Shown here: positions 2,230 through 32,100 of the stretch, piece after piece | Numbering within the stretch: position 1 is the first letter of the stretch | Layout of the letters: every line of letters starts with the position of its first letter | Assembly: GCA_018398765.1 (NCBI GenBank) | Contig: JAHBMJ010003752.1 | Location: 65,565-99,122, forward strand | DNA: 33,558 nt | From: Chromera velia | Taxonomy: Eukaryota; Sar; Chromeraceae | Reading direction: 5' to 3' | Made by a program: the position numbers and the translations under genes | The notes under the pieces: generated by a model | The model's input: the letters and a program-made list of their open reading frames with translations, nothing else | Database searches by the model: none | What the model was told of the DNA's origin: nothing

Positions 2230-3130
2230 AGGCTCGGCTGAAGGTCCGCATGAGATTTCTTTTTTTGCGTTTTCTTTTGGTCGTCATTCTTCTTGTCTCT
2301 TGCTTCTCTCCTTCGCTGATCTCCCGTGTTTTTTCCTTATCAGGTTTTCCTTTGCTGGCCGGTGTCCTGTGTGTTTTCCTTCTCAGATTTATTTGTTGTG
2401 CTTGGTGTTTAATGAGCTTTGTGCCCGCTTTCCCACGTCTGAGTCTTGGTGTTTGTGCGGCCGATCTCAATGCAGTGTGACCCTCTCTTTCAGTTGTCCT
2501 TCGTGTATCCTTTCGTCTTTGTTTCTGAATCTCTCATGCCTCTGCTTTCTTCTCCATCTTCTACCTCTGCGTTCAGGATTCTAAGGGTGCGTGCCGGCTG
2601 GCGTGACGCTAGGGCGTGACGTGGCAGCATGGAGAAAACTGGGGAGAAAAGCGGCCCACCTTGTTTACGGGACATGAGACAATGCGCCCAGCTCTCGTTT
2701 TTCATGATGAACCGAGGTGAACATGATGGAGTCATCTAGGGAATCATCCACCGGATGACAGGGAATTCTGGTGGATACTGGTAAACAACTTGCCAGTGTA
2801 CAGTGACGGGAGTAAACAGCAGCGAGCATGAAAACGTCATCGGTTTTACACACAGTTTATACATCTAGTACTGTCATCTACTATATACACGAATAACAGT
2901 TTAAATCGAACTATATCCTTGCAGTTCTAGTTGCAGTTTGTTGGTTATGACTGGTTACTTCTGATTACTTCTTATTTTAAGCTAGATTTTAAAGGAAAAA
3001 TTACTTGATAACTTGATAAGTAACAATAACTGGCTTAATAACTAAACCTAGAATTAAAAGGTACACCCTACATATACCCCCCTTTCTCTCTCCCGCTTGC
3101 TGTTCTTTATCTTTTTCAATTTGTTTCACC
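2230..3130. other. Intergenic: polyubiquitin 3' flank, then AT-rich DNA
   Basis: From 2230 to about 2590 the DNA is T-rich and probably contains the polyubiquitin 3' UTR, although no AATAAA-type signal is obvious. From about 2600 to 2850 it is unique, mixed-composition sequence. From about 2850 to 3070 it becomes strongly AT-rich, just before the reverse-transcriptase fragment. I see no gene here. Confidence 0.5.
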
Positions 3131-3491
3131 TTTTTTCTTTTTGGCCTGAATGCTGGAATGTATTGCGCATTGCTCCCGTCTCTAAGGGCCCGCCGAGTCT
3201 CGACTGTAATGAATGGCGCCCGATCCACATTGTGGGGCTTCTGGGTAAGATTTTTGCTTTATTGATGGACTCAAAGATCAGGAAAGAGGTGAAAATTGAC
3301 GAAAGGCAGCTCGGTTTCAGACAGGGGGTAGGGACAAGGGAGGCCTTCGCTGCTCTGTCTTTGTTAATTCTCAGCTCAAAAAAGAAGAAGAGCCCTCTGA
3401 TTGCCGCGTTTGTTGATTTCAGCAAAGCGTTTGATACAGTTCCTCAGGTCAAAATGTTAGAGAGGCTCAGGGAGGAAGGAGTAAGCCAAGC
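3130..3491 (+). pseudogene. Non-LTR retrotransposon reverse transcriptase, 5' fragment
   Basis: This is the N-terminal part of a reverse-transcriptase domain from a LINE-like element. The frame shows the early fingers motif (EWRPI, followed by an LLGKIFALL stretch), a GFRQGVGTREA block, and motif A with the catalytic Asp in FVDFSKAFD (Asp codon at 3415-3417). No endonuclease domain or upstream ORF is visible, so the element is 5'-truncated, as is common for LINEs. The frame runs straight into an inserted element at 3492 and resumes in the same frame at about 6168. Once one copy of the CCAAGC duplication is discounted, the two parts are contiguous. Confidence 0.9.
3486..3491. repeat. Left target-site duplication CCAAGC
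   Basis: This is the left copy of the 6-bp direct repeat that bounds the inserted element. Its partner is at 6162-6167. Confidence 0.8.
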
Positions 3492-3760
3492 CCTAGGCGT
3501 AGGACATCAAAATCAAATAATAAAACATAACGTCATTTTTTCTAGTTTTTTTTTTTAATATTTGATTTTGATTTTTTTTATTTTTGAAACTAGTTTTGAA
3601 TTAAACGATCAAGACCTAGGTCAAGTCATTTCAAAACACTAGTCAAGATGTAAGTTCTAACTGCTTTGATCTTTTTTATAAAAATCTACGAAACACTTTA
3701 TTTACAATTGTTTTCATTGAGATACATTGAGAGCAAAGATAATGACCTCAATCACAGCTT

Positions 3761-4414
3761 TTAGGCTTGGAGAACAGAATGAGGCTCTAGCACATCGTAG
3801 TGATCCCCTTCCACTTTCTGCTGCCAAAACAAAAAAATTTCTTTCTTCATCTCCTTTTTACCTAGGACACACAGTCTTCTGTACATATCAGTTTCTTTTC
3901 CAAAGACGTGAATCCGCACGTCCTTCATGAATGAGAAGCAAATCATTTCTACATACCCACCCCATACATGCCCTTCAATGAGGTGACCTTCCAGAGCACG
4001 GGCATATTTATCTATGTCAAGACTCCATCTGCTGGACAGGCCCTCGTCGGACAGAAGGCCGAGTCTCTTGACTTCGTCAGCACAACAGAGCGTAATCCAA
4101 CCTTCCTCCCCCCCGATCGGTGTGCCAAACACAAGGGTCTCAGCACTCCCCACTGTTTGAATAAAATTGGTGATCCCGGAAAGGTGAGACTCGCACGTCC
4201 CTCCAAATTTATGGGAGAAGCAATGATACAGACATCTTCCGTCCCCCAGCACTTTCGTAACAGGGGTTGTCAGAGGGAGAGAGGAAAGAGCGCAATCGCC
4301 CTCTTCCCCATTCTGCAGCTGAAGCGCGTAGTCGATCCACTTGGGGAGGGACAACTCAACTCCGTCAACTAACTGAGTCTCATCCCCTCCTGCGGCCCCT
4401 TCTCTTCCGAGTCA
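3761..4414 (-). pseudogene. OTU-family cysteine protease (deubiquitinase-like) in the transposon
   Basis: OTU proteases cleave ubiquitin chains. The frame encodes about 200 residues with OTU landmarks, numbered from the TTG codon at 4354: a GDGRC motif with Asp38 and catalytic Cys41 followed by LYHCFS; a WGG motif at 131-133 before a hydrophobic strand (IHVFG); and GDHYDVLEP with catalytic His185. The catalytic set therefore looks intact. The frame is open from just after a TGA at 4412-4414 to TAA at 3761-3763 and contains no ATG upstream of the domain. It lies in the same frame as the PIP-box ORF just upstream, separated only by TAG (4424-4426) and TGA (4412-4414). One longer ancestral protein, now broken by two nonsense changes, is the likely explanation. 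OTU domains also occur in some other eukaryotic transposons, for example certain Helitrons. Confidence 0.85.
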
Positions 4415-4423
4415 AAGTGCCCC

Positions 4424-4858
4424 CTATGGAGCGAAACTATCCGTCTTCTTTTCAGAGAGTCCAGGGCCAAAAAAGGTGAACATCGTTGTCTGTTTCTTCT
4501 GCCCCCTCTTCACTTCTGAATCGGTGTCTTTTTGTTTCTCACTTTCTCTCTCTGCACTCACTTTTGCTGCTTCCTCTTTCTTTTTTTTCTCTTCTTCTTC
4601 CATTTTCCTCTTTTTGGCTGCCTGCGTTGCAGCAGATTGAGGCCGACCCCGCCCCTTCTTTTGACTTCTGTCTGTGGTTTTGATCTTAGGATGCTCTCTT
4701 TTGCAATGGACAAACCATACATGCATGCTCCATGACTTGTCCTTTTCCTTTGTAAAGTGGTTTGGGGTTACCTGTTTTCCCTTCGTGTCACCATGACAAA
4801 CACAGACGAAACTGAATTTCTCTTTTCCATCGATCAAGGAAGCCATCAAGGAAGCCAT
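4424..4858 (-). pseudogene. Basic coiled protein with C-terminal PIP-box, N-terminal part of the OTU frame
   Basis: This 144-residue ORF is in the same frame as the downstream OTU domain. Residues 15-60 hold closely spaced Cys and His (FVCVCHG, then HVWFVHCKREH), which could bind zinc, but I do not recognise the family. Residues about 60-115 are highly charged and Lys/Glu-rich, probably coiled or disordered, and contain basic stretches such as KKRK. Residues 123-130 (QTTMFTFF) match the PCNA-interacting PIP-box, Q-x-x-(hydrophobic)-x-x-aromatic-aromatic. PIP-boxes tether proteins to the replication clamp and have been described in transposon proteins. ATG 4858 is the first Met after the upstream stop at about 4931. 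The frame ends at TAG 4424-4426. The function is inferred from the motif only. Confidence 0.6.
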
Positions 4859-5813
4859 AAATTCGGCTGCACAAATTGCTGGACGAATCCTCCAGAGGGC
4901 TTCTCCAGAATTTGTTTTTGCAACGAGACCTTACATTGCTCTGCATCTTAGGGGCTCAAGCAAGCCAGGTCAGCGTTGCAAACTCTATTCGGAAAAAGAT
5001 ACACTGTCTGAGCGAATTCGACTTGTTGCAGAGAAGGTTGATTGGTTGGAAATGTTGAAATTGCCAGACAAGACAGAATCAGACGTGTTGGCTTCTGAGT
5101 TGGTAAAGGAAACTATAGAGGAGGAAAAAGAAGAGGGAGGAGTGACAAAGCCAGGCGTCTCAAACGTTGATACTGCGTGTGCAGACTTTAAGAGATTGTA
5201 CACTTTCTGGCAAAACAGGGGCAAAGACGAGGAACTGAATGCAGAGCTGGACACGGCGTAAGGCTTTGACTCATCTGAGGTGAGTCACACTGTCAGCCCT
5301 GACGGCTGCCACATTTTTCGAGACAAGTTTTTCCGAATCTTGATTGAAGACAGCAGTAGCAAGCTTCGACCGATCACTGCTGTGTTAAAAGAAGAAATGA
5401 CAGCGCTTGAGAAAAAAAATCCTATTGTTGATGCTCTTGAGGCCAAAGGGCTTTGTTTGGACCGCGAACAGGCAAAGGGCAAGCGTGCAGCAGATGATGC
5501 TGGCAACATCATCAAGGAAAAGGGGTAGGTGTGGCTGCACACGATACACAAGTTGAAAAGAAGCAAGGAAGAGGTAGAGTATTATGAATTGGCGCAGGTA
5601 CAGGCAGTGTTCAGTGCTTCAGGAAGGCGGTTCACTGGTCCTGTTGCCCATGATCCCAAGTACAAAGACTGGATAGCACAGTACTTACGCGCACCTATGT
5701 TTGAGCGAAACACAGAGACTGCGACCTTTAGTCTTATGATCGAAGACAATGACAGGACGCGCTTTGGAAATATTTTCAGGGTCGCGAAGGTTTCAGAGTT
5801 CCAAAAAATGTGA
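4797..5813 (+). pseudogene. Unrecognised transposon protein, one frame with two in-frame stops
   Basis: A single reading frame opens after TGA 4794-4796 and runs about 338 codons to TGA 5811-5813. It is broken only by TAA (5259-5261) and TAG (5526-5528) and has no indel. The conceptual product is mostly helical and charged: an Ile/Ala-rich N-terminus, an acidic patch rich in EEEK around 5115-5140, and a C-terminal region with aromatic residues (YELAQ, DWIAQYLRAP, FGNIFRVAK). I recognise no family and no DDE or HUH motif. The first 60 codons overlap the divergent PIP-box ORF, so the two genes are head to head and may have shared a promoter near 4800-4930. This may be the mobility protein of the element, but that is a guess. 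Confidence 0.5.
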
Positions 5814-6161
5814 AAGGTAAAAATGAAGATGCCAGTGGGGAATCAAGGGTGGGTTGGTGGATGGGCAGAGGTGCCAATTAGAGTTATTAAAATTCTTGAA
5901 GAGGGAAATGCAAAAATTGTGTAAGTCAGCCTATCGTGTACAGACTAACTTCAAAATTTATCTCCATAAAAATCGATAAAATTGCTTTTAAAAGTCCTAA
6001 AATAATAAATTTGAATTTTTGAAGACGTTTTTAGATGACCGGAAGGTCCTAGTAGTAACCTATAGGTCAAATTGTACATTTTTTGTATTTAAATCATATC
6101 GTCATTTTTTTTTGTTTTGATTATTATTTTTGATTATTGTTTTTAATATCCTACACCTAGG

Positions 6162-6167
6162 CCAAGC
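6162..6167. repeat. Right target-site duplication CCAAGC
   Basis: This is the right copy of the 6-bp direct repeat. It is followed at once by the resumed reverse-transcriptase frame (residues ADVW..). Confidence 0.8.
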
Positions 6168-7803
6168 TGATGTTTGGATAATTCATTCGATGTATAGTCA
6201 GGTGAAGGCTTGGGTGGATGGGGCAACAGAATGCTTTCCAGAAGGCGGGGGAGTAAACAAGGCGATCCTCTCTCTCCTCTCCTCTTTCTTCTTTTCATTA
6301 ACAATCTACATAAGTCTGTCAGCTCCGATAATGAAAATAAGAATCAAAACTTGGCTAAGGGTACTGATAGAGAGACTCCTGTCAGACTGTCTGACGTTTT
6401 AATCGAAAGCATCGGATATGCTGACGACCTTGTTCTGTTTGCTCACAGTGCTTCAGACTTGCAAAAACGTCTGTCTTGCCTCAAGGACTATTGTAAGGAA
6501 CACGGCCTGAAGGTGAATTTAAAAAAGACAAAAGTTATGCGTCTCTCCTCCCCCCACCCCGACTCAGTGCCCCGGACCCCTTTTCTTTATGAAGGCAGAC
6601 CAGTGGAAGCGGTGAGTAAATATAAGTATTTGGGCAACTGGGTTTTTGAGGGTGGGGACCTTAGCAAGACAGTCGAAGCCCACATTGAGGCGGCAGAGAA
6701 GGCACTGGGGGCTGTGTTTGGTACTCTCTCTTCTCTGGGCTTTGTTTCTCCCTTTTCTAAAATTACTTTATTCAACTTTGAAGGCCCTCTAGCTGCCAGT
6801 CATACTGTATGGACTGGAAACGATCCCGCTGAGAAAGACAGATGTTGCCTGCCTTGATGCATTACAGTTACGTTTTGTTCGATGTTGTTTTGGTCTCTCT
6901 TATCACTCCTTTGTTTCGCCTTCCCTTCTCTCTCTCTCTCTCGAGCCATTCAGTTCTCTACTTGGTAAGTTGAGTGGGGGCTTCATTCAATGCATCAAAT
7001 CGATCGACCGTGCTCTACCCCGGGCAGTGTGGAATGAGTGCTTGGCTGGCTCGTGCGAACCCTTCGTTAAGATAGTAAAATGGCTGGCCGTTCGATTAGA
7101 TTACTCCCTTTTATAGCCTCCATTGCCAAGCATAGTGGGGGATAAGTTTAAAAGGAAGGGCAAAGGCAGAAGGAAAAGGGCGGCAAAAAGGATCATAGAG
7201 GGTGCCTGGCTGTTTGACTGGTTGAAAGAAGAAACTAGAAATGTTAGAGACAGAGACAGAATTTTCCCCCGCCTTGCGAATCTCTCCCCTTTCCAGTCAA
7301 AGAATCCGACCAGACAGCGTTTGGCCATGCACCTTCTGTATGAAAGGAAATGGCGTCCGAGAAGTGAAATGATAGAGTGCAGTGTTGAACCTCTGCCAAA
7401 GAGTCTGTTGCAGTCCTCTGCAAGCTTCTGTACGCTTTTCAGAGCTCTTACAGGGGGGGATATAGATAGAACCCAACCAGAACGGCTGTGCGATAAATGT
7501 TTGTCCCCCTCATGTGTGATCAAAGATGAGGTTCATGTCCTGACGGAGTGTAAGGACATAGAAAGGGAACGGAATAGGCTGAAAGAACTGTACAAAATTG
7601 CGAAGCAGAAAGCGCCCATTGATATAAGTCTTAGAATACAGATTGCACAACGCGTTGCAGGTGTAACCGGGAGGGGCACTTCTGATAATGAGAAGAAAAT
7701 GAAGGATATGGTGTTACTGTTGTGCACAATCCTGCTTAGAAGCGGCTCTAAAGCGCTAGCTGACTGTCTCAAGAAGGTCCATTCTGTTGATAAGGCAAGT
7801 TGA
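6168..7803 (+). pseudogene. Non-LTR retrotransposon reverse transcriptase, 3' part (frameshifted)
   Basis: This continues the LINE-like RT after the insertion. The frame reads ADVW.. to about 6245 and then shifts by one near a G-rich run. It next gives motif B (KQGDPLSPLLF, about 6260-6290) and motif C, YADD, at about 6416-6427 with the catalytic Asp pair, followed by a GLKVNLKKTKVM thumb block and a YKYLG motif. A second frameshift near 6810-6825 leads into a further open stretch ending in TAG at 7114-7116. The same frame then continues to TGA at 7801-7803. The last part has a C-x2-C..H-x4-C cluster (about 7488-7555), as seen at the C-terminus of many non-LTR ORF2 proteins. The element is dead: two frameshifts, one nonsense codon, one insertion. 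Confidence 0.88.
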
Positions 7804-10625: not shown

Positions 10626-13537
10626 ATGGAAGGCCACGGATTTTTTCTCCCGCTTCCGCCGCCGCCTCCTGGGGTTCCATACCCGCAAGCTCAGAGTACC
10701 TTCTTCTATCCGGAACCGGCACAAGCACAGCCTCTTCCACCGCCGCATTGTAATGAGCAACAGCAAGACCTTGTTCACGCCAACTTGCAGATGGTGCAAG
10801 CGCCGGAGGTTCTTGGAGGCAGGGTCCGCCTCTGTGCGGGGGAGAACCGGGAGGCCAATGCAGAGTCTGTGCAATTGCAAGAGGCAGGAACCGAAAGGGC
10901 CTCATTATCTGGTCAGTTGCTGGCTTGCTCTTTTCGATCTGGTTTTTGGATTGGGCTCAGCGGTGCATGCGGTTTGATGAAAGGGTCAGACAGGAGTTAT
11001 CTAAAAAGGGGCGGGGAGGGATTTCTTTTGGTCCTTCCGTCTGCACGTCCAACATGAAGCGATTGCATGAAAGAGTCGCCTGGTTGATGTCATGAAAGAA
11101 GAGTTTAGGCTGGACTGTTGTTGCGTTGTTATCTGTTCTGTTGTTGCTTCTATTCGATCGTTCTGCTCTCTCAGACTCTCACTCTCTCTCCCTTCCCCCC
11201 CCTCTCTGTCTTGTTATTTGCAGACACAAGTAAGGAAGGAGAGAAGGGACGAAGAACTCCGGAGACGTCGGGGATCAACTGCAAGCCAGTCAGTCTGTCT
11301 GTCTATCTGTCTCGAGAAGAAGAAACATATAGTCTGTCGGTGTGTATGCGTGTGTGTTTGTGCAGCCGCACTTTTCTCTTCTTGGCTCTGCGTGTCTGTG
11401 TGTGTTCACGTCTCTTTTTTTCACTTTGCGTGTTGACTTTTACCACACTCATCTTCTTCCCTTCGTACGGGAAATGTCGTTCATCCAATCGTTTCCCCGA
11501 CCAACCCTCCTCTCTGTCTTTTCCATCCATCCGTGCGAACATGCAGGTGGAAAATGAGGGTGACACGACCGACGTGCCAGATGTACTAGAGGACGAAGGG
11601 CAAAGTGAACTGCAGCCACTGCCGTCCCCCCCGAAGGCTTCCCCTGCCACCCCTGCTGCAGTGCGGGAGCGGGGGGAAGGGTCCACCCCCCAGTGTCGGA
11701 AGGACAGACGACAACTGGAATCCCCCACCCTTCTCTTTTCTTTTGCGCCCCCTCACACTTTGAGACCCACGCCCTCCACCGTTGCCACTGAGTCGGGGTG
11801 GAGTCCGACTTGCCTTCGAGGGAGAGGCCCTAGCCGAAGTCTGCTCTGCAGTCCCGAAAGGGAAAGGGAAAGGGCGGAAGAATTAAACCATCTCCTGCCA
11901 TTCCTCGTCTCTCCGTCACCGACTCCCCTCCCCGCTCCCGTCCCGAGGACCCCTCCTCCCCGCGTCCCACCGACTGCGAATGCGTGGGGTGCTTCCACTG
12001 CGGTCAAAGAGTGAGGCTCTCAGAAGTCGAGGCCCACCTGAAGGTCTGCCAAGCAGCCGCCGAGCAGGAGACGGCAGCAGACCCCCATGAGAAAGAAGGA
12101 CCGAAGACAGAGACGAGGCAGGGAGAAACCCCCACACGGCCGTCCAACAACACCAAAAGATGCAGAGCAGCAGAGAAGGCTGCAGGCGTGTCCGCCCCCG
12201 CCCCGTCCATTCTCGTCTCCGATCCTCTTACACACGCACCGCCGGCACCTGCACAGAAGCAAGAATCCTCAACTGTGTCGGCACGTGCCCGCCGGGTTCT
12301 TTCCACAGTCGCCGCCAGGTTTTCCGACTTCTCTGTCTTTGTCTCCAGTCAAGTCAGCATAATTGGCGGCGGGGCTTCAGCCGCGGCGTCTGTGGGTGCT
12401 CAGCCAGCATCCAAATCAGACAGTCCCTCACAGGTACTTCAGAAGCAGAACAACGGCAAGGGGGAGGGCACAGGGAAGGGTGAGAGCACCAATGTTGAGA
12501 CTGCTGATAGGAGGAACCAACTGCAAAACAGCAGCGGCAGCAGCAGCAACAGCAAAACTGCCAACCCGCCTGCCGTCTTTTCCCCCTCTCAAATCTCATC
12601 AGACGCCCACCCTGCCTCTTCCTCTGTTTATCAGTCTACCTGCCGGTTCTTCTCAAGTGTGGGGTCGGTTGTCTCCAAACTCCCGTCCTCCGTCTCTGCT
12701 TCCTTTGCGAACGCACACAAGGAGATGGAATGTGATGGCCAGTCCCCCCAAGCTCAGAAGGAGGGAGGCAGGACCTCGTCCCAAGAGGGGGGGGGAAAGT
12801 CACGCCTCTATCAGCAGGACCTCTCCTCCCTTGTACAGAATACGCCGATGGAAAACTTAGTCGATCTTGCATCCTCAGCCTCTTCCGTCTCCACCCCTGC
12901 CTCCTCTCTCCCCCGCCCCGTTCGCATCCTCGTCTACAACGTCCACAGCATCGCAGGATTGTTGAACAGTGCGTTGAGGGCATGCAACAGCAATGCGGGG
13001 GGGGTATACCATCTCTCTGTCGAAATCGACGGAGTAGAGTGGCAGTTTGGGGCGAGAGGGAGACCGGAGGGCTTGGTTTCCTCGGGGGGGATCACGTGCA
13101 TCCCTGTACGGAGCAGTGCAGAGTACGGTAAGGTCGTCTTGGAAGTAGAGGCGGGGGCGACATCTCTCTCTCCACGAGAGATCGTGGACATTCTCGACAC
13201 GTTGTACGACGAAGGCTATCACACGGAGTCGTACGACGTGTATGAGAGAAATTGCGTCCACTTTGTGGATGAATTTCTGTCTCGTCTGTCTAGCAGGGAT
13301 CCGGGTGTCCAAAAGATGCCGGAGAGATTTCGACAGGGCCACGAGGCCCTGCGAAACGTCCACAATTGGGTGGTGAGAGGAGAATTGGATCGCAGGGAGA
13401 GAGTCGAACGTCCCGATCCACAGAAAGCAAAGCTCAGCAGCAGCATAAGCAGCTCTGTGGAGAGGCGAGCATGCCCTCGTCCTTCTGGATGCGCACTGCG
13501 ATTGAAGGGGAAAAAATTCTTTTCCCTATCACCGTGA
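10626..13537 (+). CDS. UBZ4-like zinc finger plus PPPDE cysteine peptidase, spliced
   Basis: PPPDE peptidases (DeSI family) remove SUMO or ubiquitin using a His-Cys dyad. The domain lies near the C-terminus, about 12925-13290. The catalytic His is in GVYHLSVEI (codon 13010-13012) and the catalytic Cys in YERNCVHFVDEF (codon 13253-13255). Upstream, at 11990-12049, Cys and His are spaced C-x2-C-x11-H-x3-C, the pattern of RAD18-type UBZ4 ubiquitin-binding fingers. Between them lie about 280 Ser/Pro/Gln-rich, probably disordered residues. Proposed exons are 10626-10911 (Pro-rich start), 11224-11288, 11547 to about 11660, and about 11834 or 11852 to 13537; phases agree at the first two junctions. 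The third intron is uncertain because its donor is weak, so a frameshift there is possible. The stop is TGA 13535-13537. An alternative splice from donor 13373 (GTGAGAG) into about 13441 would extend the protein into downstream exons. Confidence 0.75.
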
Positions 13538-23147: not shown

Positions 23148-26100
23148 GGACACACACACACACAGACAGACGTACAGACGGGGAGGGGAGACGGATGGAC
23201 ATGCAGACAAAGACAAACCTCCACAGCGACGAGGCGCGCGTCCTCTGACGCAGCCGGGTCGCCGCAACGGTGCAGCCACGCCGACGTCGCTCCTCTCAGC
23301 CATATCGCTGCCCCTGCACGACAAGATCGCAGCCGATTTTAAATTCCATGAGAGCAAGAAAGAAAAAGAAGCTTTGCAACAGGATAGCAAATTGGGGATC
23401 TATGTGGGCTCCAATGAGGCCCACTCCTCTGCATCTCTCGTGCGTCGAACGGACTTTGAGCAACGAACAAACCCGACCGGGGAAGGGCACAAGGAAGGAA
23501 CTTATACCATTGATAGTACCCACCCTAGTATCGATCTGACAGTCTCTCTCCAGTTGTTTCTCCCTGACCTGGCCTCCCTAGGTCCCCCTCTTGCGTGCTC
23601 TTCACGTTTTCGTTCTCCTGTCCCTCTTTGAGGAAGAGAAGAGGCCTGCACTGGGAGGCGACTGCAAGGGCACACTTTCGGAATTTGGGATTTCTCAGAT
23701 CACTCGGCAGCACACCTCGCAACGCAGCTGTTGCGATGCGCACATTCTTCAAGTAAGTTTGCCTCTCTGTCCCCCCCCCAGTCGCTGAGTGGACATTCCC
23801 CTCCAGCCCCTCTTCACTAAACGAACCACTCCCGACACAAACCACCCCGATTTCACCCAGTACCGCATCCAACAGCTTCAGTCCCTGCAGACGTGCGACC
23901 GCCCCCGCCCACGCGGCCTGCAGTCAGACAGTCAGACAGACAGAGGTCGAGAGAGGAGAGAAAGGGCATTCCCTCCCTCAGAACAGAAGGCTCCTAGGAG
24001 GGAAGAAACGAAAACCTCAGCTTGCTGAGGATGACGAAGGAAACAGAAGGAGGCTTCAAACGAGACGTTGACGGAACTGGAAGAAAGACCGTCCATAGCA
24101 AAAAGGAAGGATATTATTGCGAAGGAAGATCGCAGAAGAACCGACGTGCATCTAGACAACCAGCCATTTCAGGGTAAAAATCAAAAAGTACGTTGCAAAT
24201 GCATCTGCCCCGCATTGCAGTTTTCAAATTCAAGCGCAAAATTACAACTGAAAAGAACCAAACGCACCTGTAGAACTTCACACGCCATCAAAAGCATCTG
24301 GTTGAGTTCTTCTCCAGAAAAGCAATTTCCCTCTTTTGCGTTCTCTTCCCCCCCCTTCTCTTGACCACTTGTTTTTTGTCCTTTACTTTTCCTTTCCTGT
24401 CTCTCATCCATCCGAAGTGTCTGTTCGCTTGCAATCCTCTTTCGAAGAACACGCAGTCCCTCTTCAAGAGTGTGCCCCCCCCTCTGCCTACACCTCCCAG
24501 TCGAGACCAGACGGCACAGAAGATCCACAGCACGCGCCCTCCCCCCCACCCGCATCGCAGCTCGAACTCCGCACACAACCATCGGGGTGCTTCCCAGATC
24601 CAGTGAGGAGCTCAAATCCAGCTGCTGCCCTCCCTCTTCACCTCCTGTCGCCACTTCACTGACGCACTTCTTTACAGACCACACACAGCGCTGCACAATA
24701 AGAAAAAGGAGAGAGAGAAAGAGAGAGAAAGGAAATCGCGATGACCAGACAGTCACAAAAGGGGAGGACCTTCTCCCTCTCTCGACTCGATGTAGACATG
24801 GCAAGTATCTGTCTCTGCCTTTCGCGATGCTTCTGAGTTCCGCATATGCCTCTTATTCTGCTGTTCTGAGAGACAGAAAGGCCATCGCAAAGGAAGCGAG
24901 GCAGGCTACTGTACAGGTAGGCACAGATAGAAAGAAAGAGAGGGGGAGGGAGAAACAGATAGACTATATGTTTCTTCTTCTCCCAGACAGACAGACAGAC
25001 AAACAGCCAGACAAGGCGCACAAAAAGAAAGAGAGAGGGAAGAAGCTAAATGGACAGAAAGGACATAAGGACAGACCTCCACCTCCGTGCCTGACACCGC
25101 CTCACTCCCCTCTTCAAGAAGCACATCGGACACTAGGATCTCGAAGATTTGGAACATCACCCCCCGAACCGTGTCTGTGCGGGCCGCCCTGAAGGCGAGA
25201 GACAGAGCTTTCGCAAACAAAGCCGACCAGACGCTCTCTCCCACGGCTTCAGGTACTTTGGCCATCAGAATCGCACTCTGTCCGGACAAGAGACGAGACG
25301 GTGTACCGCTCCCCCCCCCAGTCATCACGAGGACGCCAGGCACAATTTCCGGACGAGAGAGCACTTCAAGACAGAATAGCATCCACCCATGACGCTCATT
25401 CTCTCTGCAGTCTGACAAAGCAGCTGCGTGAAGAGCAAGCAGAATGCGACAAAAGGGGATTTCGGGTGCGGCTCCGAATGGCACCGTCTCTCTACTCGTT
25501 CCCTCTCTTTCCTCTGATGATACTGCCGCTCTGCTTTGACTCAGGAGATCCCACTGCGGCAAGGGGGGTGAGAAGGCACGCGTCTGCAGCGCTTCCTCGA
25601 CAGTGCAGTTGGCCAACAGACGGGCGGCAAGGGCTCGCAGCTGTATGTTGCGAGATCCCAAGATGCTTTGGAATGAAGTAACAAGGGGAAGAAGAGAGGC
25701 AGCGGGGGAATTTGGGGAGACCGACTGAGAAGGGGCCTGCTCTATCGCGGCTGAAGGTTCAGCTGAAGGAGACGGATCTGAAGCTGCGGGAGAGAAGACA
25801 GAGCGTATCGACAGCAGCCGCATGCGGGAGAGGACTAAGAGAGCCGAAGTGGCTGGCGCCTCGAGCATCTCTCTCTCCCTGTCAGTCCTCCCCTCCCCCA
25901 CACCACCCACCAGTCTCTGATCGTCCTCCCTCACTGCCTCCGCAAGTCGGCACACAATGGCGACAACACATGAGTGCAAGTCGGGGTAGTGAGCTCTGAG
26001 CTCCTCAAGAGTCAAGGGCGAAGAGGCGAGTATGGTTGCCCTCGAAGGAGCGGATGTGCACAGCTTGTATCCTCTCGGCTTGGCCTCCACAGCTTCATTG

Positions 26101-29100
26101 TCTGCTCCAAACAATCTGCGGGCAGCGGCAACGAACAGCAGGTTGGCTGCATTGCGAGTGCCCCAGTGGCTGTCGCCCAGCCTTTGAACAGCGAGCGCTA
26201 GAATCTTTCCAACGTGTGCCTCTGTCGACGTTGACAGAGGTCCGCATCTGATAATGGCACGCAGACAGTTGAGTGCGTGAACTCTACAGTTTCTCCGCTC
26301 TTCCTGCTCCTCGTCCTCCTTTTCCTCCTCCCCTGCCACCCCAGACAGCCGTGACACAGCACGAGGGAGCAAACAAGGAGCCACCTTGCCAGGCTCAGCC
26401 CTCAGGAGGGCAACAAAAGAAAGACCAAGAGCGGTCGACCGTCGGAGTGCTGGGGGGAGAGAGGCGCCCCAGGCAGCTCCTGAGTCTCCTTCTGGCTCTT
26501 TGCCTTCCCCCTCTCCGTCGCCCTCTGTTACAGAGAGGAGTCCAAGGACGAGGTCAACCCACTGGGTGGGAACTTCACAGAGACGAAGGTCACCTGACGC
26601 AAGCAAACGCCCTGCACACAGCAACGCAGGAGACAGGAACTCGCCATCATCATATTCTCTCACACACACTGATCTACCTCTGCTGCGAGAGTCGCTTACC
26701 GTGCAAACACGCCAAAGACGGGAGAACATACTGTTCCAGTCAGTCAAAACAGGTGGTGTTTATGTGCTTTTTTGACTCTTCCTGGAATCTTTTTTTTTAA
26801 CTTCTTCCTCAGGCGAGATGGACGCGGAGAGAAGGAGCAGATTGACACACAAAGTGCGAAGAATTAACACTGATTGCTCCCTGGTTCCCCATGCATCTCA
26901 ATTGACGCACGCAAGGACGATTGATACTGATGGTTCCGTTCTCCATGCAACACAAAAAAGGGAGGAAGAAAGTTTCCTTCTAGCTCGCTCACCTGCCAGA
27001 ACGGTCAGAGCACCGAAGAGACGGTCCATGGCTGCGGGATGGCGTGTTGCCAGAAGAAAGGTCAAAAGTCTCGCACCCATACGAAAAACAAGGGGCGCAG
27101 GGACGAGAGGTTCCGAGAGTCCCACAGAGCCCCTCGCACCACGTCCCCCCTCCTGACGCCCCTGCTTCCCCTGTTTCCTCCCTTGTCCCTTCTTTCCAGG
27201 ACCTCCTGACACTGCCTGATCTGCTCCTTGCGATGCCGACCCCCTCAAAGGAAGCCAGCTGAAAAGAGCTTGAAGAGCCTCGCCCACCTCTCGTACAGCC
27301 ATCCACGAGGCAACAACAAGGACGTTCTCTTCCTCTTCCTCCTCGCCCTCCTCTCCCCCTTCCCCCTCTCCCTCTGCCCCCTTGCGATGCTTCTTGTGAA
27401 GGATCGGATGACCCCTGCAGTCCACAGCTCCCGAGAGGACAGCGCCCTGCACAGGAGGCAATGCAGACGAGTCTTCCGTCTCCTTCCCCCCCGCGCTCCC
27501 AGTTCCGCGAGCGACCCCCGACAGAAGCACTGCGTCAACTCCCGATGAGATCAGAGTTCCGCGAGCGACCCCCGACAGAAGCACTGCGTCAACTCCCGAT
27601 GAGATCACCCCGAACATCGTCGTGCACACCTGTGGCATGTGGCATGAGGCACAGCGAGCGCGGCAAGCAGTCAGACAACCAACACACAAAAAAAGGCGGT
27701 CAGCAAGATAAACACGTGCGTACCCATTCATGTCGCGGATGAAATGGATGAGGATGGAATCAAACGGCAGGGAGGGCTCACACCAGCGTAACAGAACTCA
27801 AGTCGAACAGAGGGTTCAAGGCATCTGGTGACAGAGGGAGGGAGGGACTCTGACTCTGCACAAACGAAAGAAAATGGTCATCTTTCAAAAGGAAGCGAAA
27901 CGAAGCAGAAAAACACCTGCATCCCCACCTCCAGCAGTTTATCCATCAGATCCAGACAGAATTTGCTCATCCTCTCTCGTGTCTTCTCGGATTCACTCAG
28001 GGCTTCGGCAGCCTCCGGTAGAGAAGGGAGGACCCGCAACGCCTCTGTCAGCACAGCAACGACGCCGTGCAAAGTGAACCCCCTCTGTCCGAGAAGTTCC
28101 TTCTGATCCTTCAATAGGCGCGTCCGCCTGCCTACCTCCTCCGCCACCCTCTCAAGTATCATGAAGATCATCTGAGCCTTCGAAAAAGAAGAGGAAGAGG
28201 AAGAGGAAGAGGAAGGAGATGCTGAGGGACTAGACAGAGACTCCACCTCTAGAGGGGAATTTGAAGGGGGGCCCTCAACCCCTGTCACAGCTCTGTAAAG
28301 AGTCTTGAAGGGGAGGGGGGGCACAGACCCGTCTGAGGGCATGCCGAGGCCCCGACGAAGAATCAACCGGATGATTTCGATTCCGCAAGAGAAATCCTGA
28401 AGGAGCGACGTACAGAGACAGGTAGGAAGAGAGAGTACACAACGGCAGTGAAATAATGATCGCACAACAGAGAAAGATCTTTACCAGTGCGGCGAAGGAA
28501 GCAGTACACCCAAAAGGGGTCTCGCTTTCCGCCTTTTTTTTGTGACAGTAAAGGTGGAAGGCAGCGAGAAAGACAGGAGCGACGGAAACCAGAAGATATC
28601 AAAGCGACAGGGAAACCCGCAGAGACAGCAGAACAGAGGACCGATACCCACATGCCAACAGAGCAAAGAAGATTCACAGCTCCATTCCCTTCACGAACTG
28701 ACTGACTCACCCGGGGGCGAACGCTTTCCAACATGATCCACACGCTTTCTGAGAGGCTCTCGATAGCTTCCGACAGAAGGGCAGCAGTCTGTTCGGCTGC
28801 CTCAATCGAGGAGGGAGATATGGCGGAGGGCGCTGACGGTCCTGCCCCATTCGGAAGCTTCTTCTTCTGATGGGGGAGGAGGAGGGGGAAATGCGAAAGA
28901 TGTGGACAGGCACATGGTGAAAATTGGAAACTACCTGGGGACGAATAGAACACTTCAAGGCACGAAGCGAAGGAGGAAAATACACCCGATCGCGCAATTC
29001 AGGCGACGGCAATCTCGGAAGAACGTGTTGAAAAAAATGACGAGGAAACCAAAACTCCAATTGAGAAAAGAAGACGATTGATACACACGCAGCACCAGAA

Positions 29101-32100
29101 CGAGGGGGGGACGTAGTGAGCAACGGAATGAGAAACGGCAGATCGAAAACAAGAAGAGCAAAATGCTCACCGCGGGATCCGAAGCCCTCCGAGAGTCCGG
29201 AAAGACTTCAGACTTCAGATGAAGAGGCCGCAATCCCATGTCAGGAAATGAACGCAAACACCGAGCTGCCGTCTGTCGATGCCCTGCGTAGTTCGTTGCC
29301 ATCGCATTCAAAAGAAACACGCGCATGCCTTCTGAGAAAAATCCTGTGACCGCAAGGGCCGCACATCCAGCCGCACTCCGAAATCCCGACCCTCCTCCCC
29401 CCGCAGCAGCCGCAGCAGGTGTAGATGAGGCAGGGCGCTGTGCCCAGACTTCAATCAGAGCACAGGTCCACTCCAGAGCCGCACCAAACAAATCGGAAGG
29501 CGCGGAGGGTGCAAGGTGTGCCATGAGAGTCTTTCTCATTTTCTCAAGGAACTGAAGAGTTGCACCAACGAGAACCGTTTTGTCTTCCTGAATGGCTGCA
29601 TCGCTTGCCGGCCCCCTCGCCCGCCCTGCGCTTTCTCTTGAAGCCAAGCAGGCTGCAAGATCCTCTTCGGTCATGTTCTCCACATGTTTCCTGCATGAAT
29701 CTCTTGCACGTTGAAACAGCCTCTTGGCTGACTGAGCGCACTTGGCTGTGTAGTCAGATGAGGGCGGCTTCAAACTTCGACCGGCAAAGAAACGCACGAG
29801 TCGCATCTCACAGTCAAGAAGCGGAGAGGAAGACTTCTGAGATGAAGTGGAGGTCTGCAAAAGCGCTAGACGGACAGCCTCCTCTCCAGACACGAGACCC
29901 GTACAGACACGCGAAAGGGGGACAGTAAAGAAAGAGAACGAGGCTGGGAGAGCAGGAAGGAGACCCTCCTCATCGCTCAATCCATCCAACCCATCGTGCA
30001 ACTGCTGTGTCCCTCCTGGATGTGCCGGCAAAGGAGGTCGCGACCTCCCCACCGCATTCTCCCCTGCAGTCCCCTCACTCTCCGTCGTTGCATCACCCGC
30101 GCCTGCCGCTGCCAGACGTTTCGCTCTCTTCTTCCTGCTCAGGATCTTTTTGGCAGCTCGGGATCGCGCGGCCTGGCTGCTCTCATGGAGGCTGTCACTG
30201 CAGACAAGTAGGCCTGAAAACGGACCGCCGTTCTCTCCCAATTTCTCCAGGGCTCTCTTTAGCTCTGCAGGGATCAGAATGCCTCCCTCAACGACACCGC
30301 GGTCAACCCAGAGGGCACGACCGCGCGTTCGTGCACAGCAGAGCAGCTCTGCCTCCGCAGCAGTCCAAGGGAGACTAGGGTGGGGAGCAGGGAAGAAGCG
30401 GGGGGCGGCGGGCAGGTCTGGGATCCAACGCCTCGCCCCTCCTTCCGTCTCCTCCTGTTGGGACACCTGCTCCTGCTGCTGCTGGAGCACCCCTGGCTGC
30501 AGAGGCAGATTGCGGTTGCTTGTTGCCTCTTCAACAAGTGGTAGTGCAATCCTCTGAGGGGAAGAGGAGGCACTTGTCGGTTCAGAGTGCAGCGCTGCCA
30601 TGAGAGCAGGGAGGCCTCCAGGGTCGGCCTTGTGGACTGTCGGTATGATTTGTGCTGCTGCTGCAACAGAGATTTGGGCTCTCGTGAGGGATGAGAGGTC
30701 TGCGGGTAGCAGGGGTGAGCCTCTCTGCCTCGCTCTGATCCCTTTTCCGTCTCTCTGTACGGACGCATCGGAAGACTTCTGGTTGAAAGAAAAGGACCCC
30801 CCCGCCCCGGCCCCCCACTGCAGAGGCTTCAAGTTGGACAGCTCGAGAGGTTCGCGTTCCCCCCTCAGAGCTGCGGTGAGGAGGGGATATACCTCCCCTC
30901 TGAGCACAGAGATGGACCTGGAAGCCAGAGCCTCCAAGAGCTTCTCTAGGAGAAGCGCAGAGGCCCCTGCATTTTGGGGGTCTCTGAGAGGAGCTGTGAG
31001 GAGATGATGTATCAAGAGGGGTTGGGCCTCGGGGGCATCGGAGAGAAGCCAGCTGCATGCATTGATCAATTCCGTTTCGTTTTATTTCATTGCGGGACGG
31101 TGGAAGGGAGAAGAAGAGAAGGAAACCGAGTTCAAGGGCAAAAACAAACCGCGGAGGAACGAAGGTCCAGCGGATTGTGTGTGAGATAGAGGGAGAGAGA
31201 GGGGGGGGTGGGGGGAGAGAAAAAGAATCAGGTGATTAATCAGGATTAAAAGCCAATCTCATCAGTCCTCACCGACACAAACCGAAGAGTCGACAAATGC
31301 ATGTCTTCCCTCCTGCACATGTCTGGGGACAGAAAATCTCGTCATCTCAATCATCTGAAAATCAAAGCAAATACAGAAGGGGCATCTTGTTGTTATCATT
31401 CACAGTTGTGGGAAGCAACGTAGAGGAGAGAGGCAATTAAACTCAGAGAGAGAGAGGACAGGCGAAGTAAGAAAAGGCAAGTCAAGAGAGCGAGAAGAAG
31501 AAAGGAGAAGAGACTGACGCGATGTCCACGAGGGGGAGCAACGAGCAGAAGGCGAGGTAGAGGCTCTTTTTGGACGCCACTGCCTCGGGGAGAGCGGAGA
31601 GTCTGCGTGTGATTGACAAAAGAGAAGGGGGTGGGGGCCTCGGAGGGTCATCGGCTCTCTGCTCTTCCTCTTCAACCACCGATCTCCTGCTGCTCTTCCC
31701 ACTGATTTCACGACCATCCCCCCCCTCACCCTGATTCTGATTCTCCCCCCTCTCTCTGTCTCCTCCTTTCCCCCCACCCCCCGAGATCCGCCCAGGGCCT
31801 GCCTGGAAGAGTAAGAGGTCCCACAGGTCATGGGCAGCCGCGACTAGGGATTTGGTGGGATGGTCCCAATTTTCAAACACAACCGCTAAAGTTTTCTCCT
31901 CGATTGCTGCTCTTTTTTCTTCTGGCAGCTTGAAGAGGGTCCAGTCAGGCCAGAGCCCTCTGGAGACGGGGGTGGGCCCTTCTTCGCCGTCCGTCTCGTC
32001 GGCAGAAAACGGAAGGGCCCCTGCAGGGAGAGCAGTGAACTCATCACCCGAAAATACAGGAAATATGTCACCCCCCTCTCTCTTTGACTTCCCTCCTCCT

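Follow-up and report, generated by a model that had tools for sequence, protein, structure and literature searches.

A probable deletion derivative of a two-gene DNA transposon, with 8-bp target-site duplications, in a LINE of Chromera velia

A reverse-transcriptase frame of a long interspersed nuclear element (LINE) in Chromera velia is interrupted by a segment with inverted ends that carries broken pieces of two genes. What is this segment, how could it move, and do the two genes belong to it? We analysed the 33,558 nucleotides around it (positions 65,565 to 99,122, forward strand, of contig JAHBMJ010003752.1, assembly GCA_018398765.1), hereafter called the window, whose own numbering is used throughout. 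The explanation that we favour, at a probability of roughly 0.82, is a copy of a DNA transposon of the cut-and-paste type that entered the LINE with an 8-bp target-site duplication (TSD) and that, as a deletion product of a two-gene element, is non-autonomous. An initial annotation, made from the sequence alone, had also read the insert as a DNA transposon nested within a LINE, and that part of its account was borne out by the further copies and the empty site described below.

Searching the genome (177.8 Mb in 4040 contigs) with positions 3492-6161 yielded 85 matches spread over 38 contigs; merging reduced them to 38 places (loci L001 and L009-L045). A 20-base end pattern, allowing up to two mismatches, matched the genome 198 times, against 0 for a reversed control pattern. 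These are the other copies with the same ends for which the initial annotation had proposed looking, and the inverted ends lie where it had placed them. The family copies carry CTAGGCGTAGG ends, and the 29 copies retaining both ends gave the consensus CTAGGCGTAGGAYAT...ATATCCTACGCCTAG. In these 29 copies the flanking octamers were identical at 8/8 positions in 23, at 7/8 in four and at fewer in two. The comparison omits eight loci with an end missing or at a contig edge (L017, L023, L026, L033, L038, L041, L044 and L045), and L043 was dropped from the original 30 rows, as its right end is truncated and its boundary arbitrary. When left and right flanks were mispaired as a control for chance, 8/8 was reached in 0 of 812 pairings and 7/8 in two, and an exact 9-bp duplication occurred at none of the 29 loci. 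On these counts we set the duplication at 8 bp and the element in the window at 3493-6160, a length of 2668 bp. The base preceding CTAGG differs among copies and falls inside the duplication, which assigns the C at one edge of ‘CCTAGG’ and the G at the other to the target. The clean 6-bp CCAAGC duplication of the initial annotation was rejected, the exact octamers fixing the length at eight, and its boundaries, 3492 and 6161, proved one base too long at each end. Inverted ends and a target duplication of fixed length, the marks of a terminal inverted repeat (TIR) transposon, are thereby found together in many copies.

The interrupted frame matches the Pfam reverse-transcriptase profile RVT_1 at 6198-6854 (E 2e-16). 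With the element and one octamer removed, it runs open through the junction, as the initial annotation had stated. An alignment of 240 + 240 flanking bases, end to end, against LINE copies elsewhere in the genome revealed the empty site in all 40 copies scored, from 170 candidates. Thirty of the 40 span 481 bases where the window has 480, so the window LINE has probably lost one base, visible as the frame change near 6260. A frame that stays open across the junction would also be expected if the LINE contained an intron or twintron here, or if the assembly were at fault. None of the 40 scored copies contains the insertion, which excludes an intron, the alternative that the initial annotation had itself raised, and the element recurs at many other sites that are unrelated and flanked by different octamers; we regard the chance that the insert is an intron or an artefact as negligible.

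The copy nearest to the window element, on contig C3165 (95%, 2675 bp), has the same internal deletion; the fullest copy found, on C3231 (L011), is 4191 bp long with octamers matching at 7/8. The deletion junction is the same in the window and C3165 copies, which therefore derive from one deletion derivative. Further internal deletions differ among copies, which range in size down to 0.9 kb.

The C3231 copy carries two genes whose starts lie close together in divergent orientation. Gene 1 runs leftwards in one register broken by stops, with an N-terminal frame of 245 amino acids, and consists in order of an N-terminal part, a Cys/His segment, a K/E-rich linker and a C-terminal OTU-like part. 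Asp-Gly-x-Cys and His-Tyr are the catalytic motifs of OTU cysteine proteases, and counting only aligned rows that cover the place concerned, 10 of 12 have DGxC and 27 of 30 have DHYD. The OTU part has 75 matched stretches in the genome, and no relative was found in viral contigs. A PDB search with the OTU profile gave a best E of 0.2, confined to the GDGxCxxHC stretch of two viral polymerase chains, with OTUD1 at E 0.6, and a single-sequence structure model of this part was too poor for use (mean predicted local distance difference test score 36.8). The Cys/His segment of the window copy scored 16.1 bits against SAND_ULT1, under the 25-bit cut-off.

Gene 2 runs rightwards as one frame of 638 codons, with two stops read as X. 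Its 398-amino-acid C-terminal part has 105 matched stretches in the genome and its middle domain 20, some of them distant and in long open frames; stop-free frames with the middle domain were found on C92 (409 amino acids) and C2547 (367 amino acids), and a 1885-amino-acid frame on C133 was dismissed, as it falls on a stretch of N. The C92 relative shares 27% identity with gene 2 over 175 amino acids (E 3e-13 in that single comparison), with GSQAKPCEELFR aligned to GSQICKLFFR and GSQAKPCEELFRLLRLY where gene 2 has GSQICKLFFRICQLY. We take the CE..FR stretch of this relative to be a possible catalytic-Glu region; the putative Glu is E in L013. An ‘SQ.CE..FR’-like stretch may also occur in animal transposase-like proteins. 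Database searches with gene 2 gave no match of any kind in Pfam, best E-values of 0.03 in NCBIfam and 0.015 in PHROGs (a non-transposase), no convincing chain in PDB sequence and profile searches (best E 0.057) and no convincing match in PADLOC. Neither gene 2 nor the C92 relative had a relative in viral contigs, and phage records likewise yielded nothing. The statement of the initial annotation that no transposase family is recognisable therefore stands for Pfam, NCBIfam, PHROGs and PDB.

The two genes recur together. Outside the window subfamily they lie close to each other on at least 14 contigs (C52, C753, C1108, C1251, C1648, C1900, C1912, C2266, C3229, C3480, C3539, C3566, C3597 and C3635), among which is a second subfamily with CTAGGCGTAGGCCATT ends. 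We compared selected pairs of copies, not all pairs, by the ratio of non-synonymous to synonymous differences per site (pn/ps). For the OTU part, nine of 11 chosen pairs gave 0.16-0.30 (the close pair window/L011 among them), the remaining two being L030/L023 at 0.50 and window/L009 at 1.10. For gene 2, the 18 chosen pairs comprised ten between subfamilies at 0.25-0.45, the distant C92 relative at 0.58 and seven close pairs at 0.46-0.70; synonymous differences per site in the ten were 0.77-0.85 in eight and 0.40-0.41 in two. These ratios indicate that both genes are under purifying selection between subfamilies, and the pattern fits selection in active ancestors and decay in dead copies. Because of this selection we consider genes 1 and 2 to be the element's own rather than captured cargo. 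What had been described as an unusual cargo is better read as the remnants of two genes that recur in other subfamilies under purifying selection. The contrary view, that this is a Pack-type element in which the OTU and gene 2 pieces are fragments of host genes captured by a non-autonomous transposon, could draw on the broken frames in the window and on at least one copy with an unrelated interior (the tandem repeats of L081). Yet the same two genes stand in the same head-to-head order in other subfamilies, and most between-subfamily pairs are near synonymous saturation with pn/ps well below 1; captured host genes are rejected on the pn/ps evidence, and we consider a Pack-type origin very improbable.

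If the genes are the element's own, is gene 2 the transposase? It exists in many copies, has a long history in this genome and has been under selection jointly with the ends, and for these reasons we regard it as a probable transposase, with the odds slightly in favour of that assignment. The window copy lacks the middle of the fuller element, which measures 4.2 kb on C3231 and has both genes; a 12-bp filler marks the breakpoint, and stops interrupt what is left of the two genes. In P and Ac/Ds elements such filler is left when gap repair is aborted following excision, and the internal deletions here may have arisen in the same way. In the mechanism that we propose, a transposase supplied in trans would act on the 20-bp ends and move the element; gene 2 would be that transposase, or its C-terminal part, and gene 1 a DNA-binding helper of the OTU ubiquitin-protease type.

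Several observations weigh against this account. The two octamers of the window copy, GCCAAGCC at 3485-3492 and GCCAAGCT at 6161-6168, differ by one mismatch, and two of the 29 copies, L024 and L042, have no octamer pair at the expected position, although by eye GCGCGTTG flanks L042 on both sides with two additional bases. The OTU part of the window copy scores 17.3 bits in Pfam, under the 23.3-bit cut-off. Gene 2 matches no transposase profile in Pfam, NCBIfam or PDB, and no Asp pair was identified in it. The putative Glu is not invariant, being Lys in L011 (C3231) and L060 (C3762); Lys in two of three copies either counts against the transposase reading or flags those copies as inactive. Finally, in the C3231 frame no more than some 50 codons precede the region that L061 conserves, so a longer element may hold a further, catalytic N-terminal part. 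A different explanation is that gene 2 is not a transposase and that the OTU/gene 2 lineage is moved in trans by a known superfamily with 8-bp duplications (hAT, Merlin, P or KDZ) encoded elsewhere. The genome has 7 matches to the hAT dimerisation domain and 19 to the Merlin DDE domain, and an 8-bp duplication suits hAT and Zisupton/Dileera, according to sections of PMC12730594, as well as Merlin, for which part of PMC8101967 gives 8 or 9 bp. These 7 and 19 matches, however, share no contig with roughly the first 100 of the 198 end matches listed, Merlin ends start with GG (same part of PMC8101967) where those here start with CTAGG, and genes 1 and 2 are conserved jointly under selection, for which an element living off a foreign transposase would have no need. 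Movement by such a superfamily is possible, and in our judgement rather unlikely.

The second subfamily, with ends CTAGGCGTAGGCCATT (...GGCCATT), was examined at ten loci. Both ends were present at seven, with octamers matching at 8/8 in two, 7/8 in three and fewer in two (L068 and L074, with fewer than 7 matching bases); L066, L072 and L080 lacked an end pair, and the L060 octamer sits in a GAAAG run. Two further loci have ends of the first type, L079 with 7/8 and L081 with 1/8, the latter flanked on both sides by TCTAGAAC with 3 additional bases (by eye). No second-subfamily ends were seen within the DNA examined at L063, L066 and L071, which hold gene 2 pieces. Two candidates for a longer autonomous copy were rejected: at C3468 the part of the copy in L065 has decayed and contains additional inserts, and at C3971 the interior is largely tandem repeats.

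Some individual copies have features of their own. L081 (C3971:23950-27420) is a family copy whose interior is mostly a long array of TCCATCCA-type repeats, together with a stretch seemingly common to L033 and L034. Inside the decayed copy at L065, positions 2500-2766 are a small insertion bounded by inverted TAGGCGTGATCCCAATA-like termini, which may be another small inverted-repeat element. L025 (C53) and L045 (C3968) have an identical right end and right flank, probably reflecting a duplicated or haplotype contig. The substitution spectrum was taken from 19 of 30 elements (L001 and, in part, L009-L032). Changes from the majority were C>T or G>A in 80 of 107 cases over the left 340 bp and in 84 of 176 over the right 255 bp. 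Most of these changes are non-CpG, with a somewhat higher per-site rate at CpG (5.3 vs 3.8% on the left, 8.8 vs 5.7% on the right). The spectrum looks like cytosine deamination, such as methylation or a process resembling repeat-induced point mutation would produce.

Table 1. Features of the insertion and its host LINE, in window coordinates.
Feature	Position	Strand	Evidence or remark
LINE reverse transcriptase, 5′ of insertion	3097..3492	+	Frame open at junction; empty sites
Left TSD GCCAAGCC, 8 bp	3485..3492	.	Length from exact octamers in 23/29 copies
Left TIR CTAGGCGTAGGACATCAAAA	3493..3512	+	End pattern, 198 matches vs 0 in control
Probable non-autonomous element, 2668 bp	3493..6160	+	Nearest copy C3165
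Gene 1, OTU-like cysteine protease part (GDGRC ... GDHYD)	3761..4354	-	Pfam OTU, E 0.0073
Gene 1, upstream part: Cys/His segment and K/E-rich linker	4355..4835	-	Stops in register at 4412-4414 and 4424-4426
Breakpoint of ~1.5-kb internal deletion relative to C3231 copy, 12-bp duplicated filler	4828..4860	.	Same junction in C3165
Gene 2, C-terminal part	4836..5924	+	Stops TAA 5259-5261, TAG 5526-5528, TGA 5811-5813
Right TIR, reverse complement CTAGGTGTAGGATATTAAAA	6141..6160	-	
Right TSD GCCAAGCT	6161..6168	.	7/8 identical to left TSD
LINE reverse transcriptase, 3′ of insertion	6169..6857	+	RVT_1 match; frame change near 6260

Elsewhere in the window, minus-strand frames at 24906-31069 match THADA/Trm732, a tRNA-methylation partner gene (DUF2428 E 2e-18, with TPR_Trm732 just under its cut-off). 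A PPPDE (Peptidase_C97) frame at 11984-13537 (E 7.7e-18) is presumably a cysteine peptidase of the ubiquitin/SUMO kind.

Could the lineage be an undescribed superfamily of eukaryotic cut-and-paste transposons? Such a superfamily would be characterised by CTAGG ends, an 8-bp TSD and a head-to-head gene pair, one member coding for a divergent transposase (gene 2, whose CE..FR region can be made out only by way of distant paralogues), the other for a zinc-finger/OTU deubiquitinase helper. We put this forward tentatively and consider it doubtful. The lineage was not found described in the open-licence PMC literature, and Repbase and Dfam were not compared. If gene 2 is a transposase, it would add a type that is invisible to the profile libraries used here, and dozens of insertions with defined ends and TSDs would be available for tests; if it is a known superfamily in disguise, the lineage would be an ordinary new family. 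A separate helper gene of the OTU type would be another case of the ubiquitin/SUMO proteases (OTU, Ulp1) that recur in unrelated transposons.

Among known systems, hAT elements have, like the family here, many internally deleted copies, as in Ac/Ds, and an end consensus of YARNG, which the ends here do not fit; scans of frames from both genes matched no hAT domain. Helitrons lack TIRs and leave their target unduplicated, whereas the element here has both TIRs and a target duplication; the likeness is an OTU domain within a transposon, recorded for Helitron elements in part of PMC2836005. With hAT the element shares short TIRs and an 8-bp duplication, and KDZ elements (Zisupton/Dileera/Kyakuja) resemble it in the duplication length, which sections of PMC12730594 give for hAT and Zisupton/Dileera. 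The KDZ profile matched neither the frames scanned nor the genome, and its control also matched nowhere. For the P/THAP9-type transposase domain there was no Pfam match in gene 2, and the genome was not searched for it. Merlin, which part of PMC8101967 reports from alveolates and other protists, agrees in TSD length and was rejected, as the ends here start with CTAGG, not GG, and no DDE_Tnp_IS1595 domain was matched in the scanned frames of genes 1 and 2. In the genome, four of the 19 Merlin-type DDE matches lie in stop-free frames of 330-394 amino acids (C4019, C3817, C525 and C1641), which suggests that intact Merlin-like transposases are encoded there. MULE was rejected, its transposase domain matching neither the genome nor the scanned frames; in control searches over 14 genomes hAT matched 0, Merlin 1 and MULE 3. 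Dada-U1/U6, which according to a section of PMC3706591 duplicates 6 bp within small RNA genes and lacks TIRs, was rejected on the 8-bp duplication, the presence of TIRs and the varied target octamers. Ginger1 offers the likeness of a TIR DNA transposon with an OTU domain: according to part of PMC2836005 it measures about 2.6-7 kb, ends in TGTNR and duplicates 4 bp (CCGG/CCGT), and several families have an OTU cysteine protease domain, which follows a Gypsy-type integrase in the same fused protein. The element described here differs in its 8-bp TSD, its CTAGG ends, its OTU domain in a separate gene and its lack of an integrase match, and Ginger1 was rejected on its duplication and ends. The insert in the window belongs to a familiar kind, that of TIR transposons with internal deletions, and it behaves like a Ds-type element derived by deletion from a TIR transposon with two genes.

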